Shown here one piece after another: positions 14,092-58,457 of a stretch of 64,000 nucleotides of DNA. Below the pieces are notes generated by a model. That model ran no database searches. It saw only the letters and a list, made by a program, of their open reading frames with translations, and was not told the DNA's origin. Every line of letters begins with the position of its first letter. Position 1 is the first letter of the stretch. Source of the stretch: Bacteroidota bacterium. GTDB taxonomy: Bacteria; Bacteroidota; Bacteroidia; 2-12-FULL-35-15. The stretch is taken from NCBI GenBank assembly GCA_947449315.1, contig CANFRC010000006.1:1-64000 (forward strand), read 5' to 3'. A program made the translations under genes and the position numbers.

Positions 14092-14952
14092 ATGAAATCG
14101 TTCCATTCATTTAATTTTATTTTATTGGCATTAAGCATGACTGAGATCCCTGTTATAGCCTGCACGAGCTATTCCATTGAAGAAGCCGCTAAGAAAGGAA
14201 TAATAAAACTTTCTATAAAAGGAAAAGGAGGATACACGGGTGATGTTATTACTATGAAAATTCAAAATCTGACGAATAAAAAAATTGATCTTAATCTAGA
14301 AGCGGGTAGAAGATTGGATTCGAAAAATAATGGAGAGCAAGATATTCTTGTTACACAACAACAGGAGATTTTTGTGAATGCGAATCAGTTGAAAACAATC
14401 AATGTTCTTGGCATGTGTTGCCAGGCGCATAACAGCGCCCCGAAACTAAGTTCAGAATATAGCGTTGGTAAGCTCGCTGATACAAATCTGATTAAATTGG
14501 CGAAGTATATTGATCAGAATAAATATTACTCTAATTATTCCGCTCAACAATCCGTTTGGGTGATCTCAGACAATAATTCTTTGGCTAGCATCACCGAAGG
14601 CGAAAAGGAGGTAGTCACCAATTTGAGGAAATTTGTTTCAACAGTAACGGGAAAAATAATTCCTCCCTATGATATCACCTATAGAAGTGGTAGTGATGGA
14701 AGTGCTATGGGCAGAGCATTTAAGATTGATGGCGTGTTTGAGTATACATTGCCAATGCCCTGTCATTCTTCAATGGGTATTTATGACGAACATGGAAAAC
14801 TCGTTCAAATAATTTTTCAGAATCTTCAAAGTGATAGGGGAGATTATAAATTACTTTATTCATTCCGAACAAAAGATCTTCCCGAAGGAACGTATTATGC
14901 CAGGGTTGAGGCAGATGGATTGCTCCAGAAGCAGATTAAGATAGAGTTTTAA
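14092..14952 (+). CDS. Secreted protein with Cys/Gln motif resembling thioester domains and a C-terminal FlgD-like Ig domain
   Basis: The 286-residue product has a signal-peptide-like start and a Cys at position 24. Residues 38-108 look like an Ig-type strand set (GYTGDVITMKIQNLTNKK). This is followed by GMCCQAHNSAP (Cys109/Cys110) and a short helical stretch ending in AQQSVWVIS (Gln152/Gln153, Trp156). A Cys with a Pro some residues later, then Q-x-[AS]-V-W, recalls secreted proteins with thioester-type domains in which Cys and Gln are linked; that reading is inference. Residues about 215-286 resemble an FlgD-like or degenerate T9SS type A sorting domain (GIYDEHGKLVQII, LPEGTYYARVEADG). The upstream Shine-Dalgarno site is unusually strong. 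No named family is assigned. Confidence 0.68.
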   Translation: MKSFHSFNFILLALSMTEIPVIACTSYSIEEAAKKGIIKLSIKGKGGYTGDVITMKIQNLTNKKIDLNLEAGRRLDSKNNGEQDILVTQQQEIFVNANQLKTINVLGMCCQAHNSAPKLSSEYSVGKLADTNLIKLAKYIDQNKYYSNYSAQQSVWVISDNNSLASITEGEKEVVTNLRKFVSTVTGKIIPPYDITYRSGSDGSAMGRAFKIDGVFEYTLPMPCHSSMGIYDEHGKLVQIIFQNLQSDRGDYKLLYSFRTKDLPEGTYYARVEADGLLQKQIKIEF

Positions 14953-57285: not shown

Positions 57286-57852
57286 ATGGATTTTATCAAT
57301 TCTATAAAATCAATAGATACGCAACTCTTTCTGTTTCTCAATGGAAAGCACAATGCATTTTTTGATTTTATTATGCATTGGGCAAGTAGCAAATTTATTT
57401 GGATTCCCCTTTATATGTTTTTTGGATATCTTGTTTATAAGCACGTTGGAAAACGTTTATGGATGGTTGTTCTAGCGGTCTTGATGTTGATCGTTTTAAG
57501 TGATCAGATATCCAACAGAGGATTCAAAAATAATTTTAAACGATACCGTCCTTGTCAAAATTTAGTTATTCAGTCGCAGGTGCATGTGAATGGAAATTGC
57601 GGCGGAACCTATGGTTTTGTATCCTCTCATGCTGCAAATACTTTTGCACTAGCTACTTTCTTGGGGTTGTTATTTTATAAAAAAATAAACTATTTCAAAC
57701 TGTGTATTTTTGCTTGGGCATCATTTGTTTCATACAGCAGAATTTATAATGGTGTTCATTATCCCGCAGATGTTGCTGTAGGAGCTTTGCTCGGAGTTGT
57801 CATCGGTTTTCTTGTCTATAAGTTATATGCTAAAATAAATTTAACTTTTTGA
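57286..57852 (+). CDS. PAP2 family phosphatase (first of two)
   Basis: The 188-residue membrane protein has about five hydrophobic segments and the lipid phosphatase motifs KRYRP (about 86-90), GFVSSHAANTFA with the catalytic His, and SRIYNGVHYPADVAVGALLG. The usual PSGH reads VSSH here. Such enzymes dephosphorylate isoprenyl or phosphatidyl phosphates, for example undecaprenyl pyrophosphate or lipid A. It lies 34 bases after obg and directly before a second PAP2 gene. Confidence 0.88.
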   Translation: MDFINSIKSIDTQLFLFLNGKHNAFFDFIMHWASSKFIWIPLYMFFGYLVYKHVGKRLWMVVLAVLMLIVLSDQISNRGFKNNFKRYRPCQNLVIQSQVHVNGNCGGTYGFVSSHAANTFALATFLGLLFYKKINYFKLCIFAWASFVSYSRIYNGVHYPADVAVGALLGVVIGFLVYKLYAKINLTF

Positions 57853-57860
57853 AAATTCTA

Positions 57861-58457
57861 ATGAAACAACTTTCTATTGTTTTTCTATTTATTTTAATGC
57901 ATTTCTCTGTATTTGCTCAAAATACAGATATTGAGATGTTACGGAAAATAAATTTAGGTCGTGATAGAAATTTGGATAATACATTTGTATTTATTTCTAA
58001 TTCAGTAACGCCAATAAGTGTTCTTGTTCCGATCTCGATTTTTTTTGAAGGATATAGCAGCCGTGATTCTGTGTTAAAAAATAAGGGTTTATTTATTGGA
58101 ACGACTCTTTTTGTCTCAGCCGCTGCAACTGTTGCTTTGAAATATGGTGTCAATAGGAAAAGACCATTTGTCACCTATCCTGATATTCAAAAGGTTGCTG
58201 ATGCAGGTAGTTATTCATTTCCTTCCGGACATACTTCAGACGCTTTTGCAACTGCTACATCCTTGAGTTTGGCTTTTCCAAAATGGTATGTAATCACACC
58301 ATCTTTTTTGTGGGCTTGTTCTGTTGGATATTCAAGGATGGATCTGGGAGTTCATTACCCGAGTGATGTTTTGGCAGGAGCTATTGTTGGTGCAGGTTCA
58401 GCATTTGTATGTTACAAAGCGAACCAGTGGATTCATAAAAATAAGTCAAATAAATAA
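57861..58457 (+). CDS. PAP2 family phosphatase (second, exported type)
   Basis: The 198-residue product starts at ATG 57861 with a cleavable signal (MKQLSIVFLFILMHFSVFAQ), unlike the first copy. The motifs are NRKRP, FPSGHTSDAFA with a complete PSGH, and SRMDLGVHYPSDVLAGA, so all catalytic residues are present. It is probably a periplasmic or envelope lipid phosphatase. A reading from TTG 57849 that overlaps the previous stop is less likely. Confidence 0.88.
   Translation: MKQLSIVFLFILMHFSVFAQNTDIEMLRKINLGRDRNLDNTFVFISNSVTPISVLVPISIFFEGYSSRDSVLKNKGLFIGTTLFVSAAATVALKYGVNRKRPFVTYPDIQKVADAGSYSFPSGHTSDAFATATSLSLAFPKWYVITPSFLWACSVGYSRMDLGVHYPSDVLAGAIVGAGSAFVCYKANQWIHKNKSNK

Follow-up and report, generated by a model that had tools for sequence, protein, structure and literature searches.

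A probably exported Bacteroidota protein with a candidate circularly permuted thioester-like domain

Thioester domains (TEDs) are covalent "superglue" adhesion modules of Gram-positive bacteria. Does the protein encoded at positions 14092 to 14952 of the window (the whole 64,000-nucleotide stretch of DNA analyzed here) carry such a domain, and which residues would form the bond? An earlier note on this DNA had read it as a secreted protein with TED-like motifs, GMCCQAHNSAP and AQQSVWVIS, and had suggested a thioester-type pairing of a Cys in the first with a Gln in the second. The open reading frame (ORF) and both motifs are real, the motifs occupying residues 107-117 and 151-159, and the alignment adds a third invariant residue, Q83. 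The features discussed below are as follows.

14092..14952, + strand: ORF of 286 aa with an ATG start and exact coordinates; probably exported protein with a permuted thioester-domain-like domain
14092..14160, + strand: N-terminal hydrophobic segment, residues 1-23, likely signal peptide (sequence and alignment; pLDDT <50)
14197..14649, + strand: core domain, residues 36-186, with a beta region (38-128) followed by helices 131-143, 149-160 and 172-186 (AlphaFold2)
14338..14340, + strand: Q83, invariant Gln in Q-[DNT]-[ILM]-[LIV], just before strand 85-87; proposed thioester partner
14416..14418, + strand: C109, invariant Cys closing strand 100-109, aligned to the class II TED thioester Cys; proposed thioester Cys
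14440..14442, + strand: P117 (Cys+8) of C-x7-P-x5-[YF], a motif common to class II TEDs
14545..14559, + strand: Q152-x-x-V-W156 on the second helix (149-160), counterpart of the TED motif TQxx-phi-W
14662..14949, + strand: C-terminal all-beta Ig/FnIII-like domain, residues 191-286 (DSSP of the AlphaFold2 model)

The protein and its distribution

Pfam and NCBIfam searches with the window protein gave no match above cut-off. The protein is probably exported, as judged from its sequence. A lipoprotein reading was rejected: although VIAC24 is lipobox-like, its Cys is absent from aligned homologues. VIA-align matched the C-terminal domain (191-286), predicted to be all beta, with segments of beta-glucuronidase and Brr2 that we take to be Ig-like, at Z scores as high as 7.5. 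An all-beta C-terminal domain of ~95 residues is also a likeness to FlgD_ig and the T9SS type A sorting domain. The description of this region as a degenerate T9SS/FlgD-like domain was not borne out, as FlgD_ig matched at an E value of 0.04 and 14.3 of 27 bits, below the gathering cut-off. The genome contains the type IX secretion gene SprA, and the window protein is not among the 91 matches to the T9SS type A sorting domain TIGR04183 listed for that genome.

The window protein represents a real, widely distributed and unannotated family. Close homologues, with 46-70% identity to the window protein, are found at 19 named loci in Bacteroidetes MAGs. Within the window's taxonomic family, 29 of 36 genomes matched a profile built on residues 36-166. 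The same profile matched 101 of 395 Bacteroidia genomes; counted by genus, the figure is 50 of 196, and among good-quality genomes it is 92 of 339. With a more diverse profile, matches were obtained in nine of 296 genomes across the phylum, including the window's own, and in two of 98 genomes of another class, both already among those nine. A search of plasmids and phages found no relative of the window protein at an E value of 0.01, and none was found in viral contigs with the window protein as a single query, which detects close relatives only.

Among 78 rows, intact proteins are mostly 260-325 aa, with four of 450-470 aa. Other architectures were also observed. Two proteins (L023:1303-2097, + strand, and L100:3725-4516, - strand) end, after the domain, in a probable membrane helix in place of the Ig-like domain, and one genome (G006) carries both the membrane-helix type and the Ig-like type. 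At L156:1375-3348 (- strand), from a genome that belongs to the window's phylum but to another class, a single ORF places a TED-like domain after HEAT-like repeats that score below the Pfam cut-off.

Gene context is not conserved, with no neighbor cluster found in >12 of 76 loci. By sequence reading, the upstream same-strand ORF appears Rieske-like and the downstream opposite-strand ORF metallo-hydrolase-like; such neighbors occur in nine and six of the 76 loci, respectively.

Conserved residues and published thioester domains

Profile searches gave 151 matches and 108 distinct rows, of which one is a fragment and 107 span the motif columns. Q83 and C109 are each present in 107/107 rows, Q152 and W156 in 106/107, G72 in 106/107 and P117 in 100/107. 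The exceptions are L125, with Ser at position 152 and both C109 and Q83 retained, and L144, with His at position 156. In the 76 rows with <50% identity, C109 and Q83 are found in all 76, and Q152 and W156 in 75 each. These counts are partly conditioned and somewhat inflated, because the profiles that collected the rows contain the motifs. In the 71-member alignment, position 110 is Cys in 26 members and position 153 is Gln in nine. C109 and Q152 are therefore the conserved pair, rather than C110 and Q153, which the earlier note had taken as the key residues. It had also named homologues lacking either residue as evidence against its reading; C109 is retained in all 107 rows, and Q152 is lost in L125. 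Of seven distant matches from the 296-genome phylum sample, five (L154-L157 and L160) keep all three sites, L158 has lost the helix motif together with the Cys, and the N-terminal Gln is missing from L159.

The available text of the published TED studies (PMC4450167, PMC6194298) describes only two universal residues, a Cys in [YFL]C-phi-zeta on strand C and a Gln in phi-Q-zeta-phi-phi on strand Q, which are joined by the thioester. A third motif, TQxx-phi-W, lies on helix 2, and its Gln makes a hydrogen bond to the Cys backbone but takes no part in the thioester (PMC4450167, PMC6194298); as described in the accessible part of the first paper, this motif is neither essential for the bond nor fully conserved in TEDs (PMC4450167). 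The order along the chain is the Cys strand, three helices (the second bearing TQxx-phi-W) and the Gln strand (PMC4450167, PMC6194298). The 2015 survey, in its available portion, places putative TEDs exclusively in Gram-positive bacteria (PMC4450167).

All three motifs have counterparts in the window family, namely, Q83-[DNT]-phi-phi, [MFY]-C109-x-[QEN] and Q152-x-A-phi-W156, and their order is Q83, C109 and Q152xxVW156, not the TED order of Cys, helix motif and Gln. From sequence, this Gln-Cys-helix order may be a circular permutation of the TED order. In the 71 members, C109 is preceded by F/Y/L in 42 and by M in 26 and has Q/E/N/R/D at +2 in 71, and the +1 position is often nonhydrophobic. 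Q83 is followed by D/N/T in 66 and by hydrophobic residues or Tyr at +2 and +3 in 71, and only 33 have V/Y/F/L/I/M at -1. The Thr of TQxx-phi-W is not conserved in the window family. The Q152S and W156H exceptions fit a TED reading, because the helix motif is not fully conserved in TEDs in the published text available.

The closest motif likeness is to class II TEDs (BaTIE, SaTIE, EfmTIE86 and pLS20 Tie; Pfam TED_2, PF20610, and TED, PF08341), represented here by 12 sequences from pLS20-type plasmids. Both groups have [FY]C followed by Pro at position +8 and by Tyr/Phe at +14: in C-x7-P-x5-[YF], the window family has P in 65/71 and F/Y in 64/71, and the class II set has C in 12/12, P in 12/12 and Y in 10/12. 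In both, the Gln motif is often preceded by Pro at -6 and followed by hydrophobic residues, and the Gln/Trp helix is the second of three. Of 71 members, 21 have Pro at -6 from Q83; for the other Gln residues in these proteins, the count is 23 of 837. Pro precedes the class II Gln at -6 in eight and at -5 in two of 12 sequences; LPNTSSYQRL (pLS20) and IPSDSNVQNL (L118) are examples. Q245 of the pLS20 protein was equated with Gln256 of the published account, in the part available, because Cys68 of that account is C57 in the translation used here (PMC8092201). Unlike class II TEDs, which have the order Cys-helix-Gln and a long LPXTG-anchored stalk, the window family has the order Gln-Cys-helix, with 286 aa and one Ig-like domain in the window protein, and it belongs to a Gram-negative phylum and scores below both Pfam cut-offs.

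The conserved Cys and strand Gln, the TQxx-phi-W helix and a beta subdomain with three helices are likewise shared with class I TEDs (SfbI, Cpa and CpTIE) as these are described in the available published text; unlike them, the window family has a permuted order, and its sequence matches to 5a0l and 4c0z do not rise above background. Thioesters of the complement/alpha-2-macroglobulin type use a local GCGEQ-type Cys-x-x-Gln motif. The window protein contains no such motif: C109 is followed by C-Q-A, and C110 and C24 are without Gln at +3.

Profile and structure comparisons

No Pfam or NCBIfam TED model exceeded its cut-off with the window protein or the scanned relatives. Below cut-off, Pfam TED_2 matched three of 71 members (best E value, 0.041) and the NCBIfam model "thioester-forming surface-anchored protein" matched one of 71 (E value, 0.048). 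Among 20 members scanned singly, TED_2 matched L107 (E value, 0.041; 14.3 of 27 bits) and L081 (E value, 0.06), with the family Cys at or within one position of the pLS20 Cys column, assuming no gap; L107 also matched Pfam TED (E value, 0.67). L160, with the order Q-C-QAAIW, matched Pfam TED from the Cys through QAAIW (E value, 0.0032; 18.3 of 22 bits), and Pfam TED gave no match to L157, L158 or L159. The window's own genome has no PF20610 match. PF08341 matched none of 21 genomes, but it did not match the controls either, so that scan carries no information. A Bacteroides ihuae genome has a TED_2 match below cut-off (E value limit, 10), which may be chance or a Gram-negative TED-like protein.

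Direct comparison of the family with class II TEDs by hhalign gave a probability of 7.6% and a score of 24.0, and the best local match sets C109-P117-Y123 on the class II thioester Cys. None of 199 target or 200 query column shuffles reached this score (best shuffle, 23.3). In searches of the PDB, the A5 profile matched the class I TED chains 4c0z (E value, 0.026) and 5a0l (E value, 0.029); with the full-length profile, the E values were 1.1 and 0.35, respectively, and a profile of the Cys region alone matched no TED. These matches were rejected as proof of TED kinship, since designed armadillo repeats (best E value with the A5 profile, 7.9e-5) outscore both chains; several ubiquitin chains also matched equally well or better over short stretches.

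A permuted version of the window profile was also compared. In local hhalign comparisons, the permuted and unpermuted profiles scored 23.3 versus 23.2 and 23.9 versus 23.9 against class II TEDs, 39.4 versus 39.6 against the L159 set (described below) and 31.9 versus 30.7 against a wider L159 set; the near-equal scores indicate that the Cys block dominates and that little is gained by permutation. The permuted profile scored 13.9 versus 2.3 in global mode, but its alignment stopped short of the TED Gln. When a full alignment of the permuted profile is forced, the Cys, Trp and Q83 each fall on the equivalent TED residue, but the confidence is close to zero except in the Cys block. With the Q83 half alone, the best local alignment sets Q83 on the C-terminal Gln in all three target sets (L159-family sets and class II TEDs), weakly, and 0/120, 1/120 and 3/119 shuffles reached the score.

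AlphaFold2, run with 20 sequences, gave a full-length model with a pLDDT of 84.9 and a pTM of 0.77; for residues 23-192 alone, these values were 89.4 and 0.84. The model consists of the beta region, three helices and the all-beta domain; a TED combines a six-stranded beta-barrel with a three-helix bundle. C109 lies at the end of a strand and Q83 just before another, and the second of the three helices carries Q152xxVW156. Foldseek and VIA-align searches with the full model or the domain alone returned no TED among the matches listed, and neither 5a0l nor 4c0z is in either fold list. The listed VIA-align matches of the full model mostly cover the C-terminal domain, and the core domain alone has no clear fold match (best Z among the matches listed, 5.5, to ATP synthase chains). 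A permuted fold could escape Foldseek, because this program aligns structures in sequence order.

The distant match L159, found by the window-family profile in one genome among 296 (E value, 4.4e-5), belongs to a second family. It matches the window profile only from the Cys to the QxxVW helix and has no Pfam match. Within the taxonomic family of L159, relatives were found in 16 of 197 genomes; a wider scan matched eight of 394 genomes in all, five of them additional genomes (L193-L197) that match over most of the profile. C-x7-P-x5-Y and Qxx-phi-W are found in 15/15 rows that reach the Cys, and a C-terminal SQRL is found in 15/16, the exception being truncated before the SQRL site; the Cys, Qxx-phi-W and SQRL are all kept in L193-L197. 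With these elements in this sequence, the L159 family has the TED order. Its PAN-[TV]-[SG]-S-Q-R-L stretch resembles the class II Gln motif.

The two families share the Cys-to-Qxx-phi-W module. What sets the L159 family apart is its TED order, with SQRL at the C-terminal side, and the absence of the N-terminal Q83 region. The hhalign match between them is 81.9% probable (E value, 1.1e-5; 80 columns), and none of 150 shuffles reached its score. For the wider L159 set, the values were 28.4%, 6e-4 and a score of 29.7, and none of 145 shuffles reached this score, although the best came close at 28.0. The second-best alignment of the unpermuted window profile with the L159 sets pairs the Q83 stretch with the SQRL stretch (E value, ~0.09). 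The bridge from the window family to TEDs is one-sided: the L159 family barely matches class II TEDs by hhalign (2.0%; E value, 0.024), as does the wider set (0.6%). L177:1501-2436 (- strand), with its relatives L178-L197, is a Gram-negative candidate for a thioester protein of canonical order. No relative of L177 was found in plasmids at an E value of 0.1.

A candidate internal thioester and its alternatives

The proposed likeness to TEDs holds in several respects, namely, the invariant Cys, C-x7-P-x5-[YF], the Q-x-A-[VI]-W helix, subthreshold TED and TED_2 matches starting at the TED Cys and the bridge through the L159 family, but not in the Cys-Gln pair first proposed. That pairing is probably wrong, because the available text on solved TEDs has the helix Gln bound to the Cys backbone by a hydrogen bond and assigns the thioester to another Gln (PMC4450167, PMC6194298). 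A likelier bond partner than Q152 is Q83, which lies upstream of the Cys. The C109-to-Q152 spacing of 43 residues had been considered short and the mark of a separate small class; with Q83 as partner, the spacing does not define a class, and the permuted order does so instead. Classification of the window protein as a TED was rejected, given its residue order and scores below the Pfam cut-offs.

The preferred reading, to which roughly even confidence is attached, is a TED-like N-terminal domain, distantly related to bacterial TEDs and circularly permuted, that contains an internal C109-Q83 thioester. The Q83 strand, the last in classical TEDs, would now precede the C109 strand, and the C109 strand and the three-helix bundle with its Qxx-phi-W helix (Q152 and W156) would follow in the usual order. 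The internal thioester would form between C109 and Q83 with release of ammonia, and Q152 and W156 would hold the Cys backbone. Through this thioester, an exported protein may become covalently linked to an amine of an external partner, such as another cell, a matrix or an envelope component.

The strongest alternative, though an unlikely one, is that no thioester forms and that C109, Q83, Q152 and W156 are the structural or ligand-binding core of a beta/alpha domain whose TED likeness reflects ancestry or chance without the chemistry. TED models that stay below cut-off and fold lists without a TED are in line with this alternative, as is the tolerance of Cys loss in L158. A disulfide is also possible, because 63 of 71 members have a further Cys after residue 28. 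The no-thioester reading accounts poorly for a Cys and Gln that are invariant down to 16-50% identity, with the Cys in TED register, and for a related family in the TED order.

It is quite improbable that a real C109-Q83 thioester arose in an unrelated beta fold by convergence on the TED motifs. The fold lists, with middling beta matches only, and the weak direct hhalign likeness would suit such an origin, but the Cys, helix and Gln motifs have spacings common to TEDs, and the L159 family ties the Cys-to-helix half to the TED order. The pairing of C109 with Q152 of the helix Q-x-A-V-W, as a separate thioester class, is very unlikely: Q152 is nearly invariant and should adjoin C109 if, as in the published TED descriptions available, the equivalent Gln contacts the Cys backbone, but that Gln is neither bond partner nor essential in TEDs in the accessible text of PMC4450167, L125 retains C109 and Q83 with Ser at position 152, and the pairing leaves the invariant Q83 unexplained.

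Returning to the permuted C109-Q83 reading, thioester attachment in Gram-negative Bacteroidota may exist in two forms, a permuted form in the window family (distributed among good-quality Bacteroidia genomes as given above) and a classical-order form in the L159/L177-L197 family, a proposal put forward with slightly less than even confidence. The two forms would present the same reactive site in two circular chain orders. If true, a permuted version would extend covalent thioester attachment to a major Gram-negative phylum, give a large unannotated family a testable chemistry and serve as a natural test of how much of the TED fold bond formation requires; a compact protein-coupling tool is also possible. 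The literature searched, a coverage that leaves out most subscription papers, held no description of such a Bacteroidota or circularly permuted TED family.

Elsewhere in the window, two adjacent ORFs on the + strand (57286-57849 and 57861-58454) fall into one similarity cluster and are possibly a tandem duplication or a split gene.
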